64,000 nucleotides of DNA from Alteromonas sp. M12 (GTDB taxonomy: Bacteria > Pseudomonadota > Gammaproteobacteria > Enterobacterales > Alteromonadaceae), in NCBI RefSeq assembly GCF_037478005.1, contig NZ_CP144164.1:806001-870000 (forward strand), written 5' to 3'. Each line of letters begins with the position of its first letter. The first letter of the stretch is position 1. A program made the translations under genes and the position numbers. The notes beneath the pieces are model-generated. The model saw nothing but the letters and a program-made list of their open reading frames with translations, was not told the DNA's origin and made no database searches. This document shows, one piece after another, positions 5,248 to 40,443 of this stretch.

Positions 5248-5868
5248 ATGAATGACTTGTACACACAACTGCTAACTGTATTTATGGGCTTTTTCGCCAT
5301 CATGAATCCGATAGCTAACACAGCTGCCTTCGCTGGGTTGGCGGGCAATAAAAGTAATTCGGAACAATTTCGCATTGCGGCCAGAGCACTTATTATTACC
5401 TTTGTTGTAATTCTATTATTTTCGTTGCTCGGCAAGATGATTTTTCATTTGTTCGGCATTACCCTTCCTGCATTGCGGATAACGGGCGGTACTCTGGTGT
5501 TCGTGATTGGTTATCATATGCTCAATGGATCTGGTTCTAATCTGCATTCTGCTGAAAATAATGATACCTCTGATATTGCTGTCTCACCCTTAGCTGTTCC
5601 TCTCCTCGCTGGCCCAGGAACCATTGCGACCGCAATGAATTATTCTGCCTCTGGTGGGACAATGGGAATCGTGATTACGGTTTCTGTATTTGCAGTTATG
5701 TGTCTTATAACATTCCTATGCTTTGTTTTTAGTTCTAGGATTCTGGCTATTATAGGTCAAGGCGCTCTTGGTATTGTCACCCGATTAATGGGACTGATTT
5801 TAGCCGTTATCGGTGTACAAATGATAATTGCGGGGGTAACAGGGGCTTTCAATATTCCAATCGGCTAA
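5248..5868 (+). CDS. MarC-family inner-membrane protein
   Basis: The 206-residue polytopic membrane protein has about six hydrophobic segments. Family signatures (MarC/UPF0056) are FAIMNPIANTAAF near the N-terminus, LPALRITGG at about 73-81 and SPLAVPLLAGPGTI at about 113-126. MarC was once thought to be linked to multiple antibiotic resistance, but that link was not upheld and its substrate is unknown. It is monocistronic here. The ribosome site ahead of ATG 5248 is weak (AGAGAAAA). Confidence 0.85.
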   Translation: MNDLYTQLLTVFMGFFAIMNPIANTAAFAGLAGNKSNSEQFRIAARALIITFVVILLFSLLGKMIFHLFGITLPALRITGGTLVFVIGYHMLNGSGSNLHSAENNDTSDIAVSPLAVPLLAGPGTIATAMNYSASGGTMGIVITVSVFAVMCLITFLCFVFSSRILAIIGQGALGIVTRLMGLILAVIGVQMIIAGVTGAFNIPIG

Positions 5869-6592
5869 GAGCAACATTTATTGTCTAATTTTGATAATGA
5901 CTATCAATTTCCGAGCCTCAACTAGCAAGTATTCAATTGTTAATAATTTATAACAATCTTGTGGGCTACAAATTTAGCGATATTTGGTTGTCAAAAAGAA
6001 GCTGAAATTAACGATTTTTCTTCCCACTAATTGTACTGATTAGACACTGATCTATATTCAATTTTCACTTTGTTTTAGCTGCTTTATTGCTATTTTTTTA
6101 ACATTTCACCATTTATATAGAACTGCGAAATCCGGGTTTTTTGTCACTTTTCGATTTGCTAATTTAATTACCAAGTTGGTCCTTCAACGTTTTAGATTTA
6201 TTGGGCCAAACAAAATTTTGGAGTATCAAAAAGAGCTTTAATTGAATGAATTTTCGGTGAATATTTCTATCCTGCAATACGAATCAATGGGCGCTAGAAG
6301 TAACTTCCTATTAATGAACCATTTAAAGCACTTGTTCGAAATTTTTCTCTTCATACTCCGTGCAAATAGCTTTTGTATAGCGGCCTCTACTAACTATCCC
6401 GCTTTTTAAATATAAGACGTAGAGCACTCTGGATTATTGATATAATGATATTGCTTTAGGTTTTTGGTTGTGTAGTATGAATTTGATTATCGAGCAATGA
6501 TGATTGCCATATTCTAATAATTGGCTGTGTCTGAAATGCATTTAGCTAGCATCTTTAAAAATACAAACAAAAATTATAAAAGGTACAAAATA
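5869..6592. other. Long AT-rich intergenic region
   Basis: About 720 bp lie between marC and the CpeT-like gene. Short frames such as one of about 31 codons starting near 6314 have no recognisable features. I see no tRNA, no clear riboswitch and no strong terminator. The length would allow a small RNA or a distant regulatory region, but nothing in the sequence positively shows one. Confidence 0.4.
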
Positions 6593-7291
6593 ATGAAAAT
6601 AGTAAAAAGCTTGCTCATGACTTTAGTGGTTGCGGCTGGAATGTCTTTCTCTGTTCAGGCCGCTGGCTTTGAAAATGACGCAATGCTAAAGAAATTTGTC
6701 GAATGGCATTTAGGATTTACAACTAATATCGCGCAAAGGGACAAAGATCTAGCCGCTAAGGTCGAACCTCGTTGGGGATTAAGTGAATTGCGCTTTCAAC
6801 GTATTTGGCATGAACGTACGGACGGCTATTGGATTTATTATGAAACTAGCCAACCTGACGTAAGACCGGATAGAAATCAAATCTGGCGACTGTATCGCAA
6901 TGACTTTGGTAACCTTAAAGTCGATTTATACTCTTTCAAAAACATAGATGAAGGATTAACTTTGTGGGGAAAAGGCGACAATCCAAAGGCTTTTGAAAAT
7001 ATTAAAATGAGCGGTTTATCAACAGTACCTGGCTGCAACGCTACCTATCATTGGATTCCAGAGTTTGAACGTTTTTCTGGCGTCAATACTCACGGAGAAT
7101 GCTTCACTATCGGTAAGTCATATTTACTCCAACATGTGGAAATTTCTAAAACAGCAGACGGAACCTTAGTGCGCAACGATTGGCATTCATTTTATGACGA
7201 AAATGGTGTGGCTAAGCGTGGCGCTAAGTTTAAAAGAGGCGATCAAGGACCTACCACGCATGTGTACACAGAAACATATGACCTTAACTAA
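6593..7291 (+). CDS. Exported CpeT/CpcT-like (DUF1001) protein
   Basis: The 232-residue protein begins with a signal peptide (MKIVKSLLMTLVV then SVQA|AG). The body resembles the CpeT/CpcT family: a pattern of QIWRLYRN, then LYSFKN, LSTVPGCNATYHW and a distal FSGVNTHGECF, matching the conserved Pro-Gly-Cys and later Cys of that fold. In cyanobacteria CpcT is a phycobilin lyase; heterotrophic bacteria carry exported relatives of unknown role. ATG 6593 is chosen because it starts the signal peptide and has AAAGG ten bases upstream; a TTG at 6521 in the same frame would add 24 unlikely residues. Two hairpins follow the gene. Confidence 0.65.
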   Translation: MKIVKSLLMTLVVAAGMSFSVQAAGFENDAMLKKFVEWHLGFTTNIAQRDKDLAAKVEPRWGLSELRFQRIWHERTDGYWIYYETSQPDVRPDRNQIWRLYRNDFGNLKVDLYSFKNIDEGLTLWGKGDNPKAFENIKMSGLSTVPGCNATYHWIPEFERFSGVNTHGECFTIGKSYLLQHVEISKTADGTLVRNDWHSFYDENGVAKRGAKFKRGDQGPTTHVYTETYDLN

Positions 7292-7322
7292 TCGTACCCA
7301 GTAAAAATAACTTCTTTACTCA

Positions 7323-7354
7323 AAGCAGTCTGAAATATAAAAGACTGCTTTTCC
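7323..7354 (+). terminator. Rho-independent terminator after the CpeT-like gene
   Basis: AAGCAGTCT (7323-7331) pairs with AGACTGCTT (7342-7350) and is followed by a short T-run. It is 32 bases past the stop codon. Confidence 0.75.
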
Positions 7355-7356
7355 CT

Positions 7357-7381
7357 AAATGCGTTAATTTTTAACGCATTT
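7357..7381. terminator. Second hairpin, possibly bidirectional
   Basis: AAATGCGTTAA (7357-7367) pairs perfectly with TTAACGCATTT (7371-7381) across a three-base loop. It sits between the CpeT-like gene and the convergent GGDEF gene and could serve either. Confidence 0.55.
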
Positions 7382-7493
7382 TGTGCCCTGCTAATCCAAT
7401 GTTGACTATCACTACCGGACTCAGTTTACAGTGATTTGAAAAACCTGATTTCAGCATATGTATTGTTACTGACTGATCACAACTTATTGATAG

Positions 7494-10814: not shown

Positions 10815-12191
10815 ATGAGAAAATTAATTAGAAATACTGCTGTTCTTTTGGTTGCTACTTTTGCTGGAGCAGCTTTTGCTCAGGAAAGTAAACCACTAGA
10901 TTTGGATGCACTGCTTAAGCAATTAGAGCAAGGCCAATACCAACAAAATCAACAAAATACTCAGCGTGAAAAAGAGTTTGTACAAAAACGTGCTGAACAA
11001 GATCAAATGCTGCGTGATGTGACCTCACAACGTAATGCTCAGTTGAACACATCTGAAAAGCTGGAAACGCAATTTGAAGAGAATGAATTCAAATTAGCAG
11101 ATTTGAATGATGCTTTGGATAAACGCCTAGGTTCGTTAAAAGAACTATTCGGTGTGTTACAACAGGTTGCAGGTGACACCAAAAACAAATTTTACAACTC
11201 AACTGTTTCAGCGCAAATCTCTGGTCGTTCTGAATTTTTAGATGAAATGGCCCAGTCTATGGGGACGAGTTCTAAATTAGCTTCAATTGAAGAAATAGAG
11301 CGGGTGTGGTTTGAAATTCAACGCGAAATGACTGAGTCAGGCAAAGTCACTAAATTTACAACTGATGTTGTAGAAGCTGGTGGCGCTAAAGTCAATAAAG
11401 AAGTCGTTCGTGTAGGACCTTTTGCACTCGTGTCTGATGGCAAATACCTTAAGTACGAAGGCGAAACCGATACTGTTGCTGAATTGATTCGTCAACCTGC
11501 AGATCGTTACACAGACAGCGCCGCAAATTTACAGAGCTCTGATGGTGAATTGGTTTCATTTGGATTAGACCCAACGGGCGGAACTATTCTTGGATTGTTA
11601 GTTCAAGCGCCAAGTCTTGAAGAGCGTATTCACCAAGGTGACCTTGTGGGATATATCATTATTGCGGTTGGTGCAGTTGGTATTTTGGTCGCGTTCTGGC
11701 GTTTTGTGGTACTTACGCTTGTTGGCGCCAAAGTAAATGCACAACTTAAGTCGAGTAAAATATCTGAGGGGAATCCTTTGGGTCGCGTGCTTAAAGTGAA
11801 AGATGCTCATCCAAATGCTGACACCGAATCCTTGGAATTGCATTTAACCGAAGCCATTTTAGCTGAAGTGCCTAAATTAGGACGTTTCTTAACACTAGTA
11901 AAAATGATTTCAGTGGTTGCTCCCCTTGGTGGGTTACTTGGTACCGTTACCGGTATGATTGTGACCTTCCAACAAATTACCTTGTTTGGTACAGGTGACC
12001 CGAAAATTATGGCTGGCGGTATCTCATCGGCATTGATTACCACTGTTCTTGGTTTGGTTGTGGCCATTCCTACTACTCTGCTTTATGCATTGCTCAGTAC
12101 GCAAAGCAAAAATATTGTAGCGATATTGCAAGAACAAGCAGCGGGTGTCATTGCTGAACGAGCTGAAACTCAGTCTGGCACTAAGGCATAA
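10815..12191 (+). CDS. TtpC-like MotA/TolQ/ExbB family protein
   Basis: The 458-residue protein has a signal peptide (ends AAFA), a periplasmic coiled-coil region to about residue 270, a transmembrane helix near 278-300 (GYIIIAVGAVGILVAFWRFV) and a C-terminal MotA/TolQ/ExbB proton-channel domain with VVAPLGGLLGTVTGMIVTFQ. This matches TtpC of Vibrio TonB2 systems, which works with ExbB2-ExbD2-TonB2 to energise outer-membrane receptors. ATG 10815 is chosen for its AGAGAG ribosome site and signal peptide. It is four bases from the next gene. Confidence 0.88.
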   Translation: MRKLIRNTAVLLVATFAGAAFAQESKPLDLDALLKQLEQGQYQQNQQNTQREKEFVQKRAEQDQMLRDVTSQRNAQLNTSEKLETQFEENEFKLADLNDALDKRLGSLKELFGVLQQVAGDTKNKFYNSTVSAQISGRSEFLDEMAQSMGTSSKLASIEEIERVWFEIQREMTESGKVTKFTTDVVEAGGAKVNKEVVRVGPFALVSDGKYLKYEGETDTVAELIRQPADRYTDSAANLQSSDGELVSFGLDPTGGTILGLLVQAPSLEERIHQGDLVGYIIIAVGAVGILVAFWRFVVLTLVGAKVNAQLKSSKISEGNPLGRVLKVKDAHPNADTESLELHLTEAILAEVPKLGRFLTLVKMISVVAPLGGLLGTVTGMIVTFQQITLFGTGDPKIMAGGISSALITTVLGLVVAIPTTLLYALLSTQSKNIVAILQEQAAGVIAERAETQSGTKA

Positions 12192-12195
12192 GACG

Positions 12196-12717
12196 ATGTT
12201 TGTAGAGATCTTTGAATCAATCCGAGACTTCACCGAAACCGGTGGGATTATCCTGCTGATAATAGGTGCCTTGATATTCGTGATGTGGATTTTGATACTC
12301 GAACGTATTTTCTATGTGACTTATGGTCATAAGCAATTTAAGAAACAGACCATTTCCACTTGGCAAGCACGTAGCGATCGAAATTCATGGAATGCGCATC
12401 AGATTAGACAAGCAATGATTTCTAGAGTCAGTCTTAAATTACGCTTCAGTCTTCCCATTATTCAGGCGTTAGTCGCGCTATGCCCTCTATTGGGTTTGAT
12501 GGGAACGGTAACAGGTATGATTGTGGTATTTGATGTAATGGCCATGTCTGGTGGCGGTAACGCCCGGTCAATGGCCGCAGGGGTTTCACAAGCTACTATA
12601 CCCACAATGGCTGGCATGGTGGGTGCGTTATCCGGCGTATTCGCGTCTACATGGTTAACGCGCACAGCAAAAACCGAACGTTTACATCTAGAAGATGCAT
12701 TGGAGATTCAACGTTAG
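12196..12717 (+). CDS. exbB: ExbB-type proton channel subunit
   Basis: The 173-residue protein has three predicted membrane helices, with the first at about 18-38 (IILLIIGALIFVMWILILER). The family core is CPLLGLMGTVTGMIVVFDVM. With ExbD it forms the proton channel that drives TonB. The start at ATG 12196 is four bases past the ttpC stop; a longer upstream frame would overlap ttpC by about 47 bases and lacks a ribosome site. It is the short ExbB2 type, paired with the long TtpC paralogue before it. Confidence 0.9.
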   Translation: MFVEIFESIRDFTETGGIILLIIGALIFVMWILILERIFYVTYGHKQFKKQTISTWQARSDRNSWNAHQIRQAMISRVSLKLRFSLPIIQALVALCPLLGLMGTVTGMIVVFDVMAMSGGGNARSMAAGVSQATIPTMAGMVGALSGVFASTWLTRTAKTERLHLEDALEIQR

Positions 12718-22878: not shown

Positions 22879-23203
22879 GTAGCATGGCCTTCACGCCATG
22901 GCGTGGGGCAACATATCGCGGGGTTAAAACACCCGCCTACAAGCCATGGAAAGGTTCAACAAGGCGCGGTTTGTAGCATGGCCTTCAGGCCATGGAATCC
23001 TTGCAAAATGCTGCGGGGCTAAAGCACCCGCCTACAGGGTAGGGGGGATTATCTTTGTAGGATGGTCTTCAGACCATGGAATCCTTGCAAAACGCTACGG
23101 GGCTAAAGCACCCGCCTACAGGGTAGGGGAGATTATCTTTGTTGCATGGTCTTTAGGCCATGGAATCCATGAAAAACGCTGCGGGGCTAAAGTACCCGCC
23201 TAC
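22879..23203. repeat. Four REP/BIME-type palindromic units
   Basis: Four related units of 62-63 bp lie at 22879-22940, 22973-23035, 23057-23119 and 23141-23203; the last three have an exact 84-bp pitch. Each starts with GTAG (GTTG in the last) and a first palindrome such as CATGGCCTTCAGGCCATG. Each ends with a second palindrome, GCGGG..CCCGC, then CCTAC, which is GTAG on the other strand. Two inverted GTAG-headed hairpins make this a BIME-like pair. The same family builds the array at 38.4 kb. It fills the gap between tuf and def and ends three bases before the def stop codon. Confidence 0.85.
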
Positions 23204-35845: not shown

Positions 35846-37675
35846 GTGACTAGCATTCCTCAACAATCGCTGGACTTCTTAAAAGCTTCTGCTCCTTTTG
35901 ACCAGCTACCCGCTGAGAAGATCACTGCATTGGCAAAGCATATTACCGTTGCTTATTTGACCCAGGAAAATGCCAAGCAAATATTGACGGACAGAGATAA
36001 TAATCTGTTTTTAATTAGTAGCGGCCAATTTACCGTTAAAGACTCCAACGAGGTTGAGCAAAATTTAAGTGAAGGTGACTTTTTTGGGGTTGGGAATTTA
36101 CTTAATAAGTTGCACCATGCTATTGATATCAAAGTTGATAGTGCGGGTTTACTTTACTGCTTTCCGGCCGAACAGTTTGATATTTTATGTAATGAAAATC
36201 CGGCGGTGGCTAAGTTCTTTGAAACTTATCATTCAGACCAACTTTATAATGATGCCGTGTCAGATTCTAAATCTATGTGGTTGTATAAACCTATTAGCGA
36301 AGTCATCTCTGAGCGCGTAATCAGTAGTGATACAGATACCTCTATTTTAATTGCGACGCAACAAATGTCTGAAGCCAGTATTTCTTCATTATTGATCACC
36401 GAGGGTGACAAGTTAGTTGGCATTTTAACTGATAGAGACATTAGGAATAGGGTTGTTTCAAAGGAGGTAAGTGTTCACTTACCAGTGTCTGAGGTTATGA
36501 CTAAAGAGCCTTTCAAGATCACTGAAAACAGAACTCTTTTTGATGCTTTATGCATGATGACTGAGCACAATATTCATCATCTTCCGGTTGTTGATAGGAT
36601 AACTCACATTCCGTTAGGAATGTTAACTTCCAGCGATATGATTCGTCATCAACGAGGCAACATCTTATTTTTAATTGATGAATTGGCAAAGGCCAAAAAT
36701 CTCTACGAACTCACTCGTCTTAGTTGGCAATTGCCGCATTATTTTGCCAAACATGCTAAACGCTTAGGTGATTTTGATGTGGCTGGCAAAGTGCTGTCTC
36801 AAGCCACTGATATTATGACTCGAAAGTTACTGACCTTTTACCAACAACAAAATGGTAACCCGCCATTTGATTTTTGCTGGCTGGTTTATGGCTCTCAAGC
36901 TCGTGAAGACCAAAATATGGGGTCAGATCAAGACAATGGGTTATTGTTGGAGCGACGACCTAATCCTCAGGAAGATGAGTACTTTGCGCAGATGTCACAA
37001 TATGTGTGTGAAGGTTTAGGCAAATGTGGCATTAAACTCTGCGATGGTAACATTATGGCATCTAATTCAGAGTTGCGGATGAGTGTCGAAGATGCCGTGA
37101 TAGAATCTGAAAAGTGGGTGAATCAACCTACTTTAGAGGCCATTTTACATTTTAATATCTTTTTAGATGTGCGCGCTGTTGCGGGCAATAAAGACTTGTT
37201 TGCAGCGCTTCAAGCGGCCCGAAAACCCTTGTTAAAACAGCCATTATTTCTGTCTGCTTTGGCGCGACATGCAGCAGAAGTTGCTGTGCCCTTATCCGTG
37301 TTTCAAAAATTTGTGTTCCAAAAAGGTCATCAACCTGAAGATTGCATAGACTTAAAAGTGCATGCCATTGCTATCATTAATAACCTAGTGCGAATCTATG
37401 CGTTAGCAAAAGGATTAGAAATGCCATCCACTTTAGGAAGGCTAGATAACCTAAAAGAAGGTTCGCAACTCACTGAAAGTGATGGCAATGACTTACGAGA
37501 TATTTGGTTGTTTCTGAATCGGTTGCGATGGCGTCACCAGTTACAAAATAGCGTGACGAATAATTATGTCTCCATAAGTGACTTATCATCTATTCAACGT
37601 CACCAATTAAAAGCCGCGTTTAAAACCATTAAGAGAAGTCAGCAAGGTGTTTCAATGAAATTTGCTGGTGGTTAA
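35846..37675 (+). CDS. cNMP-binding, CBS and DUF294 nucleotidyltransferase-like protein
   Basis: The 609-residue protein has an N-terminal cyclic-nucleotide-binding-like domain (about 10-135), two CBS domains (about 160-275, SSLLITEGDKLVGILTDRDI and THIPLGMLTSSDMIR) and a DUF294 nucleotidyltransferase domain with GSQAREDQNMGSDQDNGLLL (about 350-370), then a DUF294 C-terminal helical domain. It resembles GlnD/GlnE-type signal-transducing enzymes, but the target is unknown. It often accompanies acetate symporter genes. GTG 35846 is preferred (GGAG six bases upstream); a TTG four codons earlier would lie on the ribosome site. Confidence 0.88.
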   Translation: MTSIPQQSLDFLKASAPFDQLPAEKITALAKHITVAYLTQENAKQILTDRDNNLFLISSGQFTVKDSNEVEQNLSEGDFFGVGNLLNKLHHAIDIKVDSAGLLYCFPAEQFDILCNENPAVAKFFETYHSDQLYNDAVSDSKSMWLYKPISEVISERVISSDTDTSILIATQQMSEASISSLLITEGDKLVGILTDRDIRNRVVSKEVSVHLPVSEVMTKEPFKITENRTLFDALCMMTEHNIHHLPVVDRITHIPLGMLTSSDMIRHQRGNILFLIDELAKAKNLYELTRLSWQLPHYFAKHAKRLGDFDVAGKVLSQATDIMTRKLLTFYQQQNGNPPFDFCWLVYGSQAREDQNMGSDQDNGLLLERRPNPQEDEYFAQMSQYVCEGLGKCGIKLCDGNIMASNSELRMSVEDAVIESEKWVNQPTLEAILHFNIFLDVRAVAGNKDLFAALQAARKPLLKQPLFLSALARHAAEVAVPLSVFQKFVFQKGHQPEDCIDLKVHAIAIINNLVRIYALAKGLEMPSTLGRLDNLKEGSQLTESDGNDLRDIWLFLNRLRWRHQLQNSVTNNYVSISDLSSIQRHQLKAAFKTIKRSQQGVSMKFAGG

Positions 37676-37770
37676 TGGACACGCTGCGGTTTAGGTTAAA
37701 GAAAAGCGTTGAATAATAAAAAATACTGTTGAGCATGGCTAAACAGTCGACAAAATAGGATTAGTAATCA

Positions 37771-38457
37771 ATGTGGCAAACACTGAAAAATTGGTTCGTA
37801 CCCAAATCAACTATTCCAGAACATTTTCGACATGTGCCTTGGCAACAAATTCCATTTTTGTCGATTGATTTAGAGCTCACCTCACTTGACGCAAAAGAGT
37901 CCAATATATTGTCGGTTGGCTGGGTGGAAGGGAAAAAAAGTAGCATTGCATTACGCAGTTGTTATTACAAAGTGATTGCCACAAAAGCTTCTTTGAATCA
38001 AAGTCCTGTTATTCATGGTTTGTTGGATGAACATATTGCCCAAGGTGAGCCAGTAAAAGTTGTACTTGAGAAACTAAAACATTATGCCCAATCCCATGTG
38101 TGGGTGTTTCATAATACTAATTTAGATATGTCAGTGCTGAACAAGGTTTTTGCAAAACTAGGAATCCCGTTACCGGCAATCGTTACCTTGGATACATTGC
38201 AAATAGCCCTCTATCAAATACGTAAATCCAATCACGTGCCAGCGCCTAATGCTGCGACACTGACATCATGTCGACAGCGGCATAATTTACCTTTAGCTCC
38301 GGCGCATAATGCGTTAGATGATGCAGTGGCGACCATGGAATTGTTGTTTGCACAGTTAAGTCAGCTAGATCGTAAAGGCAAAGAACCCTTATCAGCCCTA
38401 ACCGGAACAGGTGCTTTGAAAGTGTTTAAAGCGACCTCATCCACAGCGCGGGGCTAA
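37771..38457 (+). CDS. DnaQ-like DEDDh 3'-5' exonuclease
   Basis: The 228-residue protein shows the DEDDh exonuclease motifs: ExoI SIDLELTSLD (Asp and Glu at about 31 and 33), ExoII HNTNLDMSVLNKVF (Asp) and ExoIII HNALDDAV (His and Asp). It is likely to be a stand-alone epsilon-like nuclease acting on DNA or RNA 3' ends; it is not dnaQ itself. In relatives it is paired with the DUF294/CBS gene, as here. The final codons and TAA stop lie inside the first REP repeat (GCGGGGCTAAAG), so the native C-terminus may have been altered. Confidence 0.85.
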   Translation: MWQTLKNWFVPKSTIPEHFRHVPWQQIPFLSIDLELTSLDAKESNILSVGWVEGKKSSIALRSCYYKVIATKASLNQSPVIHGLLDEHIAQGEPVKVVLEKLKHYAQSHVWVFHNTNLDMSVLNKVFAKLGIPLPAIVTLDTLQIALYQIRKSNHVPAPNAATLTSCRQRHNLPLAPAHNALDDAVATMELLFAQLSQLDRKGKEPLSALTGTGALKVFKATSSTARG

Positions 38458-39220
38458 AGCACCCGCCTACAAATCCAACAACGTAGCATGGCCTTTAGGC
38501 CATGAAATATCTCATACACATTGCAGGGCTAAAGCAGCCGCCTACAAATCCAACAACGTAGCATGGCCTTTAGGCCATGGAATATCTCAAACACATTGCG
38601 GGGCTAAAGCACCCGCCTACAAATCCAATAACGTAGCATGGCCTTTAGGCCATGGAATATCTCATACACATTGCAGGGCTAAAGCAGCCACCTACAAATC
38701 CAATAACGTAGCATGGCCTTTAGGCCATGGAATATCTCAAGCACATTACGAGGCTAAAACAGCCGCCTACAAATCCAATAACGTAGCATTGCCTTTAGGC
38801 CATGGAATATCTCAAGCACATTGCATGGCTAAAGCACCCGCCTACAAATCCAACAACGTAGCATGGCCTTTAGGCCATGGAATATCTCAAACACATTGCG
38901 GGGCTAAAGCAGCCGCCTACAAATCCAACAACGTAGCATTGCCTTTAGGCCATGGAATATCTCAAACACATTGCGGGGCTAAAGCACCCGCCTACAAATC
39001 CAATAACGTAGCATGGCCTTTAGGCCATGGAATATCTCAAGCACATTGCGGGGCTAAAGCACCCGCCTACAAATCCAACAACGTAGCATGGCCTTTAGGC
39101 CATGGAATATCTCAAACACATTACGAGGCTAAAACAGCCGCCTACAAATCCAATAACGTAGCATTGCCTTTAGGCCATGGAATATCTCAAGCACATTGCG
39201 AGGCTAAAGCAGCCGCCTAC
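38446..39220. repeat. 75-bp BIME/REP tandem array, ten full units
   Basis: Ten GTAG-headed units start at 38483 and recur every 75 bases exactly, at 38558, 38633, 38708, 38783, 38858, 38933, 39008, 39083 and 39158; a partial unit leads at 38446-38482. Each unit has a first palindrome CATGGCC-TTTA-GGCCATG (variant CATTGCC in three units), a central AATATCTCAAACACATT, a second palindrome GCGGGGCTAAAGCACCCGC, CCTAC, and a 12-base spacer AAATCCAAYAAC. Units 4-5 and 9-10 share the same variants, which points to duplication of multi-unit blocks. Because 75 is a multiple of three, open frames run through it; they are not genes. Confidence 0.93.
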
Positions 39221-40443
39221 AGGGCTTTTTTGGTGGGCATGACGACGTTGGCAAAAATTAATCCTGCCACTAACGACATTAAAATTAAAAATGTTTCCTG
39301 ACCGATATGATCTGCCTTAATAAAGTCCTGTCCGGAAATAAAGGAGTTCAAACCTATATACGTTTTTGAACCAGGTACCAACACAATCAAACCATGCATA
39401 GCAACAATAGTCGAAGGCGCATTCATGACTCTGGAAAATAAGTTTGAAAAGACCCCTAAAGCAAATGCGCCGACGAATGCACCTAATCCATTCTCTAAAT
39501 AGGCAGAGCTCCATGTGGAAGCGCCGTATGCGATAAACGTCGATACAATAGCCCAAGGTACATGCTTCAAGCGGGTGCGAAATATCGCTACCAGACCTAT
39601 GCTTAGCAGCAGCACCCCTAACCAGTTAACCCAAAAGGGTAAGGTATCGGCAACTTGCAATTCTTGTTGACCAAAGAGCTGGTAACCAAGGGTGATACCG
39701 ATAAATGCGCCGAAATACAATTTGAATAATTGCATAATCGCATCCATCACTCTTGCGGTCCCAGAAACTAAGTTACGCGAGGATAATTCTGCAAGTCCAA
39801 TAGTTAAGGACAGTCCTGGAACTAAAATAATCAGCGACGACAAAATTATCAGCCATATATTGAACCCTGACTCAAAATAATAATTAATTGCACAGGCGGA
39901 AAAACCAACCGTAAAAGACGCCACTGACTCTAACATTAGGTTGACGCGTTTTGAGCGTAGTGCCCAAAGTGTCCAGAAATAGACAATCACACCCAATACA
40001 CCAGACCATAAAATTTCCGGCCAACCAGCCCCCATTAGCATAGCAAAGGCACTGGTTGAAGTACCAAAAGCTACCCCTGTAAGCGTTTTGTTGTAGGGGC
40101 TTTGCATAGTATCAATTTGATCCAAACGTTTGTCCGCATCTTGCAGGTTAATTTCACCTTTTAATAATTGATAAGCTAGTTCATCTGTCAGTGATAACGA
40201 ATTCATATCCAATTCACCGGGATCAATTCGCGCGGCGTGGTTATATTCTTCTTCGTGTCGGTCGCTCCACAACACTATTGACAATGAAGTCGGGGTAGAT
40301 ATAAACGAAGCGTTTACACCTAAGTGCGCAGCAACTTCACTCAAATACGCTTCAAGTCGAAACGAAGGCGAGCCATATTTATGCAACATTTTGCCTAATT
40401 TGAGTATAAATCTGCGTATCTGGATAAATTCCGACTTGTCCAC
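39217..40443 (-). CDS. ThrE-family threonine/serine exporter
   Basis: The 408-residue protein combines the two halves of the ThrE family: an N-terminal DUF1212 domain (KLGKMLHKYGSPSFRLEAYL, then FISTPTSLSIVLW) and a hydrophobic C-terminal half with about ten membrane helices. Members export threonine and serine in Corynebacterium. It starts with GTG. The stop codon (CTA at 39217-39219 on the plus strand) lies within the terminal GTAG of the last REP unit, so the repeat supplies the end of the gene. Confidence 0.85.
   Translation of the reverse strand: MDKSEFIQIRRFILKLGKMLHKYGSPSFRLEAYLSEVAAHLGVNASFISTPTSLSIVLWSDRHEEEYNHAARIDPGELDMNSLSLTDELAYQLLKGEINLQDADKRLDQIDTMQSPYNKTLTGVAFGTSTSAFAMLMGAGWPEILWSGVLGVIVYFWTLWALRSKRVNLMLESVASFTVGFSACAINYYFESGFNIWLIILSSLIILVPGLSLTIGLAELSSRNLVSGTARVMDAIMQLFKLYFGAFIGITLGYQLFGQQELQVADTLPFWVNWLGVLLLSIGLVAIFRTRLKHVPWAIVSTFIAYGASTWSSAYLENGLGAFVGAFALGVFSNLFSRVMNAPSTIVAMHGLIVLVPGSKTYIGLNSFISGQDFIKADHIGQETFLILMSLVAGLIFANVVMPTKKAL

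Follow-up and report, generated by a model that had tools for sequence, protein, structure and literature searches.

A tandem array of short palindromes separates two convergent genes in the 64,000-nucleotide stretch of the Alteromonas sp. M12 chromosome that was analysed as a whole (the window). The gene on its left encodes a DnaQ-like 3'-5' exonuclease and the one on its right a ThrE-like threonine/serine exporter (Table 1), and the array fills the junction between them from stop to stop. The stop codon of the exonuclease gene (TAA, 38455-38457) falls inside the first type-A REP, and the TAG stop of the ThrE-like gene is part of the GTAG head of the last REP. The product of the latter gene lies below the cut-off of the NCBIfam ThrE model and is 100% identical to the ThrE-like protein of Aliiglaciecola lipolytica D2R05.

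Table 1. Features of the exonuclease/ThrE junction and a second array of the window, in window coordinates
Feature	Coordinates	Strand	Basis
DnaQ-like 3'-5' exonuclease gene	37771..38457	+	Pfam RNase_T PF00929 over cut-off
Array, very probably a modular BIME: ten 75-bp units and a 23-bp partial unit, 21 REPs	38448..39220	.	Tandem Repeats Finder, ungapped units, REP search
First type-A REP	38448..38470	-	GTAG head at right end, 38467-38470
First of ten 12-bp spacers, AAATCCAACAAC or AAATCCAATAAC	38471..38482	.	Between facing GTAG heads
First type-B REP, GTAGCATGGCCTTTAGGCCATG	38483..38504	+	REP search
First of ten 18-bp spacers	38505..38522	.	GTAG-outside side
Last REP, type A, partial eleventh unit	39198..39220	-	CTAC at 39217-39220
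ThrE-like threonine/serine exporter gene	39217..40443	-	Pfam PF06738 and PF12821 over cut-off
Second array: 8 REPs of the same types, other spacers, tandem part with an 84-bp unit	22879..23203	.	Tandem Repeats Finder, REP search

Tandem Repeats Finder places the repeat at 38448-39221, with a period of 75, 10.3 copies, 93% matches, 0% indels and a score of 1324. An ungapped split from 38448 gives ten full units, each with 0-7 differences from the consensus, and a partial eleventh unit that comprises REP A only and ends at 39220. From left to right, every unit opens with a type-A REP on the minus strand; after a 12-bp spacer it continues with a type-B REP on the plus strand, and an 18-bp spacer closes it. 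The 21 REPs alternate strictly between A(-) and B(+). The facing GTAG heads (CTAC...GTAG) stand 12 bp apart in all ten units, and the spacer on the other side, where GTAG lies outside, is 18 bp long in all ten as well. REP detection returned 29 REPs in the real window and 0 in five mononucleotide shuffles. Each REP has the GTAG head adjoining an imperfect palindrome of ~20-40 bp that characterizes GTAG REPs, and the head-to-tail repetition of a module with two or more inverted REPs and two segments between them is that of a modular BIME. The array is very probably a modular, BIME-2-like element built of two GTAG REP types. The initial annotation had described ten 75-bp units with opposed GTAG hairpins in a tandem BIME and a conserved 12-base spacer; both descriptions are borne out, with the array proper running from 38448 to 39220 and not from 38446. 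A CRISPR array was considered as well and rejected, because the spacers are near-identical between units.

The units are related to each other in a mosaic manner. When the array is compared with itself, shifts by multiples of 75 give an identity of 0.888-0.960, and the other shifts between 5 and 399 no more than 0.35. The highest value, 0.960, belongs to the five-unit shift (0.888-0.944 for other unit shifts), which also gives the longest identical run, of 99 bp. Since this shift fits best and units 5 and 10 are identical, each with 7 differences from the consensus, copying of a block of some five units within the array is probable. Block copying had been proposed at the outset from variants shared by units 4-5 and 9-10; the five-unit shift supports the copying, but units 4 and 9 differ at 5 positions, so that the units named are close to the observed pattern without matching it exactly.

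Variation in the hairpins themselves is of two kinds. The REP B variant CATTGCC, present in units 5, 7 and 10, breaks one stem pair without compensation. Among 274 REP B copies with an exact GTAG and a TTYA loop, which comprise 37 distinct stems, compensatory changes are found at pair 6 in 7 stems (2.0 expected), at pair 3 in 4 (0.9) and at pair 7 in 1 (0.1), the expectations coming from a shuffling that ignores relatedness. The remaining four of the seven stem pairs show 0 changes on both sides. These counts are indicative of a REP B palindrome kept through compensatory changes.

The array belongs to an abundant family. A BLAST search with the 75-bp unit, of the kind the initial annotation had called for, gave 257 matches in the 5.01-Mb, single-contig genome. 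REPs were read in the window, in 20 stretches selected because they held matches (195 kb) and in 20 others spread over the chromosome (400 kb). At up to 4 mismatches, these 41 stretches, 20 of them chosen for matches, contain 43 clusters of 4-22 REPs; 27 of the clusters hold at least 10 REPs, and the spread sample contributes three, with 5, 15 and 6 REPs. Types A and B lie on opposite strands in 43/43 clusters and both occur in 41/43, while strict A/B alternation is restricted to 14/43. The repeats are of high copy number, as the 257 unit matches show, and extragenic, with a called ORF spanning the whole array in 0 of 41 arrays. The expectation that REPs occur singly or in short BIMEs, which would make a ten-unit block unusual, is not true of this genome. 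Singleton REPs may exist elsewhere in it, since the spread sample yields one isolated hairpin at up to 6 mismatches and there are exact matches outside the stretches read. The second array of the window, like the first, sits between convergent ORFs.

One protein of the genome exceeds the cut-off of the RAYT model NCBIfam NF047646, with 151 bits against 80. Its gene (11763-12209 of stretch L053) lies between arrays of 13 and 21 A/B REPs, its stop codon is the TAG of a REP A, and an asparagine-synthase-like gene, named by eye, adjoins it. The RAYT flanked by GTAG hairpins for which a search had been suggested is thus present. Thirteen further NF047646 matches in the genome are below the cut-off and lie mostly in open frames of ~315-345 aa. 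Another element of the window, at 178-1799, encodes a 326-aa Y1-transposase-like protein (448-1428) with NF047646 and Pfam Y1_Tnp matches below cut-off. The gene lies between tandemly duplicated flanks (226-495 and 1527-1772) that carry inverted ATAAAATGGACATCCAT-like repeats; the ATAAAATGGACATCCAT motif has 9 genome matches at up to 2 mismatches, 7 of them in the window. By analogy, this element looks like the TIR-associated tyrosine transposase elements described in the available portion of PMC3733652.

Of nine Aliiglaciecola genomes, with that of M12 counted among them, four have a close RAYT: M12 itself (G000), the same-species genome (G002, 98%), A. lipolytica E3 (G001, 94%) and G006 (85%). 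The exact B core occurs in the same four of the nine, with 229 matches in G000, 137 in G002, 3 in G001 and 201 in G006. G005 has only a weak, 28%-identical RAYT match and no B core, and the other four genomes, one of them only 59% complete, show neither a close RAYT nor the B core. As far as these nine sequences go, the presence of a RAYT is not predictive of REP abundance, since A. lipolytica E3 combines a 94%-identical RAYT with 3 exact B cores.

REPs are concentrated around the RAYT gene. Of the 142 exact CATGGCCTTTAGGCCATG cores, 45 fall within 85 kb (314,600-399,300, or 1.7% of the chromosome) around the RAYT at ~356.8 kb, as counted by hand among 100 of the 142 sites, namely all those up to 3.57 Mb. 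The stretch 0-1 Mb holds 63 of the cores; 18 lie in 1-3 Mb, 19 in 3-3.57 Mb and, by difference, 42 in the rest. REPs are also sparse far from dnaA, whose domain is located at 1.2-1.4 kb. Of the 23 clusters formed by exact A sites, 18 lie in the half of the chromosome nearer to dnaA (p = 0.005); when the RAYT region with its eight clusters is set aside, 10/15 do. There is no strand bias in the B core, whose 201 core matches are split 109/92, arrays of both orientations occur on both chromosome arms (by eye), and array orientation relative to gene direction is mixed in all neighbour classes. A coding minisatellite of a different kind was seen at 5353-7437 of stretch L066, where an efflux-adaptor-like ORF, named by eye, contains many copies of a His/Met-rich repeat.

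The arrays are placed close to the 3' ends of genes. The neighbours of 41 arrays, that is, of the 43 clusters except two without a called neighbour, are convergent in 15 cases, co-directional in 22 and divergent in 4, a count that uses ORFs called from their length alone and arrays of which many had been selected for similarity. The median distance from array to gene is 19 bp for 3' ends (n=52) and 134.5 bp for 5' ends (n=30; Mann-Whitney p = 6e-8). At 12 of the 52 3' ends, gene and array share just the four bases of GTAG, so that TAG is the stop codon. TAG stop codons supplied by REPs are also reported in the accessible text of PMC3733652, as are conv-REPs no more than 20 bp from either 3' end. 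As 3'-end siting is common to most arrays examined, with 41/52 ends within 60 bp, it looks like a general placement rule and not like a local adaptation of the exonuclease/ThrE junction.

The two spacers of the window array differ in their distribution. For the 12-bp inside spacer, the arrays compared contain no counterpart of at least 70% identity; the most common GTAG-inside spacers of other arrays range from 4 to 63 bp, with 76 in one array that has a single value. The same form of the 18-bp spacer prevails here and in an array at 4.458 Mb (L051 4075), and the commonest spacers of two further arrays are similar to it, by 94% at 4.464 Mb and by 78% at 4.030 Mb. A GTAG-outside spacer common to other loci, next to a 12-bp spacer without a partner, suggests that the B-18-A pair was the piece that moved to the window locus and that the 12 bp are local. 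A rule of thumb given in the consulted part of PMC3733652 is that GTAG-inside dimers have variable spacers and GTAG-outside dimers conserved ones. When the commonest spacer of each array is compared and spacers under 9 bp are omitted, pairs at least 70% alike amount to 10/595 for inside and 18/820 for outside spacers, with 0 in letter-shuffled controls. Judged from these comparisons, a REPIN-like moving unit is supported for the window array and not for the genome at large, because outside spacers are hardly more often common to arrays than inside ones.

In related genomes the junction is seldom seen complete. Among 35 loci with a ThrE relative, the exonuclease was found in 2 (L012, of A. lipolytica D2R05, and L013), while several of the other 33, such as L045 and L027, end soon after thrE. 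One of the two, in Aliiglaciecola sp. 3_MG-2023 (L013, genome G006), contains three A/B pairs at the junction with different spacers. A. lipolytica E3 (L045) has GTAG REPs with other stems after thrE, which reach the contig end. In the same-species genome, the window array is represented by at least 8 units with a run of 16 N inside it, and at both ends of the array the sequence is the same as in M12.

At arrays other than that of the exonuclease/ThrE junction, length differs between the two genomes of the species. The same-species assembly is a draft, in which 19 array rows were found in 16 stretches and 8 are cleanly comparable. Rows were left out for N inside the array (L091, L093) or beside it (the first of L103), a contig edge (L095, L105), one or both flanks unmatched (L102, L106), a flank identity of 81-94% (both of L097, and L098) or a span over two arrays of M12 (L104). 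All 8 comparable arrays differ in both REP number and span, although their flanks are 97-99.9% identical. The REP numbers in M12 and the relative are 15/9, 4/7, 5/4, 14/9, 9/10, 15/9, 11/6 and 6/4, so that six of the relative's arrays are shorter and two longer. L098, one of the rows left out, has equal REP numbers, 7 and 7, and different spans. Collapse in a short-read draft could shorten the relative's arrays, yet 2 of the 8 are longer in the draft. In the arrays viewed, the differences between the genomes consist of whole modules. For E. coli, a passage of PMC8049555 describes a mutation-accumulation line that lost five of six tandem REPINs.

A different set of hairpins characterizes A. lipolytica E3. 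Its RAYT gene lies beside the asparagine-synthase-like gene as in M12 and is flanked by A and B REPs. When up to 2 mismatches are allowed, the E3 stem GTAGGCTGGAATTTATTCCAGC is matched 13 times each in G001 and G006, and the remaining seven genomes, M12 included, have 0 matches. A stem-agnostic search of 369 kb of the E3 genome, partly chosen for hits, revealed 24 perfect 7-bp GTAG hairpins of 12 stem-loop types, against 0 in shuffles, and 11 of the 12 types occur at one stretch only. In the window and the array stretches of M12, the CATGGCC stem accounts for 153/170 perfect GTAG hairpins. A change in the REP class associated with a RAYT is termed an 'orthoswitch' in the available pages of PMC3686654. 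It can be imagined that GTAG REPs in this genus exist almost only as self-renewing tandem arrays at 3' ends, seeded by the RAYT preferentially near its own gene, and that the arrays homogenise themselves while stems are swapped in place between species and the RAYT is inherited, an in-situ 'orthoswitch'. Such a general scheme is quite improbable. If it were true, E3 would show the process under way, with an orthologous RAYT, three exact B cores of the old type and a set of 12 stem-loop types.

For the window array itself, a history in two stages can be proposed, which as a whole appears likely. A REPIN-like pair, consisting of a B REP, the 18-bp spacer and an A REP with GTAG outside, would have been placed at the 3'-3' junction of the exonuclease and ThrE-like genes by the RAYT of the genome, acting on single-stranded REP hairpins. 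Duplications and deletions of whole units, one of them the copying of some five units, would then have amplified the pair and the local 12-bp stretch on the spot, through slippage or unequal recombination with or without the RAYT. In this view, the GTAG hairpins probably owe their spread to a small transposase-like enzyme resident in the genome and their number at this site to multiplication between the two genes. From the sequence patterns we infer that the RAYT mobilises A and B REPs, that B-18-A is the moving piece, and how the tandem copies arose.

The second stage might also stand alone, with the array as a neutral minisatellite that arose through replication slippage or unequal recombination and in which the RAYT had no part. 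The strict 75-bp register, the mosaic variants and the best fit of the five-unit shift are what slippage or unequal crossing-over would produce, and the whole-module differences between the same-species genomes, in the arrays viewed, fit as well. Slippage alone, however, leaves unexplained why the same two REP types recur in 43 clusters with mostly different spacers and why the REPs co-occur with the RAYT, which makes this explanation rather unlikely; slippage or unequal recombination may instead be the expansion step inside the two-stage history. The initial annotation had allowed for an assembly artefact, tandem repeats being a common assembly hazard, and the same-species draft indeed has its N run inside this very array. 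However, the M12 genome is a single contig, the units are not identical to each other, and the same-species assembly, which is independent, agrees with M12 at both ends of the array and contains at least 8 units, so that an artefact is very improbable. Still less credible is a gene for a repeat-containing protein. The 75-bp unit is equivalent to 25 codons, and one frame of the plus strand runs open through every unit, giving a TTG-started ORF of 170 aa (38789-39301), and two other arrays have open frames (L053, 4898-5320 and 7883-8341). The ORF, however, starts at TTG in the middle of the array, with no earlier start in frame in the ORF list, the other five frames of the array contain repeated stops, and the L053 arrays read the same hairpins in other frames, which is ill-suited to a common protein repeat. 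The ORF is probably spurious, a product of the unit length of 25 codons and of the one frame open through the array.

Regarding function, the favoured view is of a mobile repeat whose presence at 3' ends is tolerated and whose influence on mRNA ends is mild at most. The array contains no intrinsic terminator (1 in 37700-39800 against 2.7 expected) and no promoter-like site. The motif WATCAANNNNTTR, the IHF core consensus, has 146 matches with at most one mismatch in the window and 0 in 38448-39220, and no Rfam family was found in 37500-40000 at E values up to 1. RNA of three units is predicted to fold strongly (z = -6.14), as expected from palindromes. These negative results, and folding no different from that of palindromes, are the reason for preferring a tolerated repeat. 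They also lend no support to the terminator and the IHF sites proposed in the initial annotation; as to the phase-variable length locus that it proposed, phase variation of expression is unlikely because the array is 3' of both genes. The effect on the host is likely to be small and limited to hairpins in the 3' ends of two convergent transcripts, where they could possibly shield mRNA ends or help Rho-dependent attenuation.

A functional array kept by selection, and not mostly selfish, would be a terminator, an insulator or a gyrase or IHF site between the convergent genes. Its stop-to-stop position, the strong folding and the array of other GTAG REPs directly behind thrE in A. lipolytica E3 would agree with such a role, and the accessible text of PMC2817692 and PMC3686654 reports that E. 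coli BIMEs bind gyrase and IHF and that REPs aid Rho-dependent termination. The lack of an intrinsic terminator and of an IHF-core match within one mismatch in the array, together with a 3'-end siting that is the general rule for these arrays, makes selection for function unlikely, and a tolerated mobile repeat is retained as the favoured reading.

Several known systems bear similarity to the array. DNA gyrase binds and cuts the BIME-2 elements of E. coli, while BIME-1 elements possess an IHF site between their REPs; 38448-39220 holds no WATCAANNNNTTR match with up to one mismatch. The alternation of two REP types in tandem is a feature of E. coli BIME-2 too, according to the available text of PMC2817692 and PMC3686654, but the REP sequences are different here. 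The GTAG REP super-family, as the main text of PMC3733652 describes it, shares the GTAG head, a stem of 6-9 bp, a short loop and opposed heterodimers with the present repeats, as well as tandem clusters that include flanking DNA, 3'-end and convergent placement and TAG stops; the likeness lies in these described features, and the paper figures 24 families. That main text, in the form available, has 0 mentions of Alteromonas, Glaciecola, Aliiglaciecola, Alteromonadales or Pseudoalteromonas. REPtron Mb of Marinomonas (PMC8266576, in part) also has a GTAG head and a TTTA loop, but its 5-bp stem begins 2 bases off GTAG, whereas the 7-bp stem of REP B directly follows it.

In Pseudomonas fluorescens SBW25, tandem copies likewise include flanking sequence, clusters are found beside RAYT genes, and REPs from two groups form tandem arrays with as many as 12 members (PMC3116915, excerpts). 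Most SBW25 REPINs are, however, singlets, and the largest ordered cluster in those excerpts has four REPINs and one REP, while in M12 clusters of at least 10 REPs are common (27 of the 43 read). The modular BIMEs of Stenotrophomonas maltophilia also repeat at least two inverted GTAG REPs and two segments head to tail, with inter-REP segments mostly unlike between arrays and a RAYT that is flanked by REPs and in one case joined directly to a BIME (PMC2817692, in the sections available). Compared with these, the M12 arrays have other stems in another host, no cluster below 4 REPs among 43, and some spacers common to several arrays. Modular arrays, RAYT-adjacent BIMEs and tandem copying with flanking DNA are thus already in print, as far as these partial sources extend. 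Literature searches for palindromic repeats of Alteromonas or Aliiglaciecola gave no REP description for the genus, the Alteromonas match being a paper on tea-soil bacteria and the Aliiglaciecola match a CRISPR reference only. The window array is ordinary in kind, and its genome is rich in such arrays. As a textbook BIME in a genus for which those searches found no REP description, the single locus adds little; the genome is a useful model, since it combines a single RAYT above the cut-off with two REP types and dozens of long arrays, and since some relatives have these and others lack them. It would allow testing where RAYTs place REPs and what makes arrays grow.
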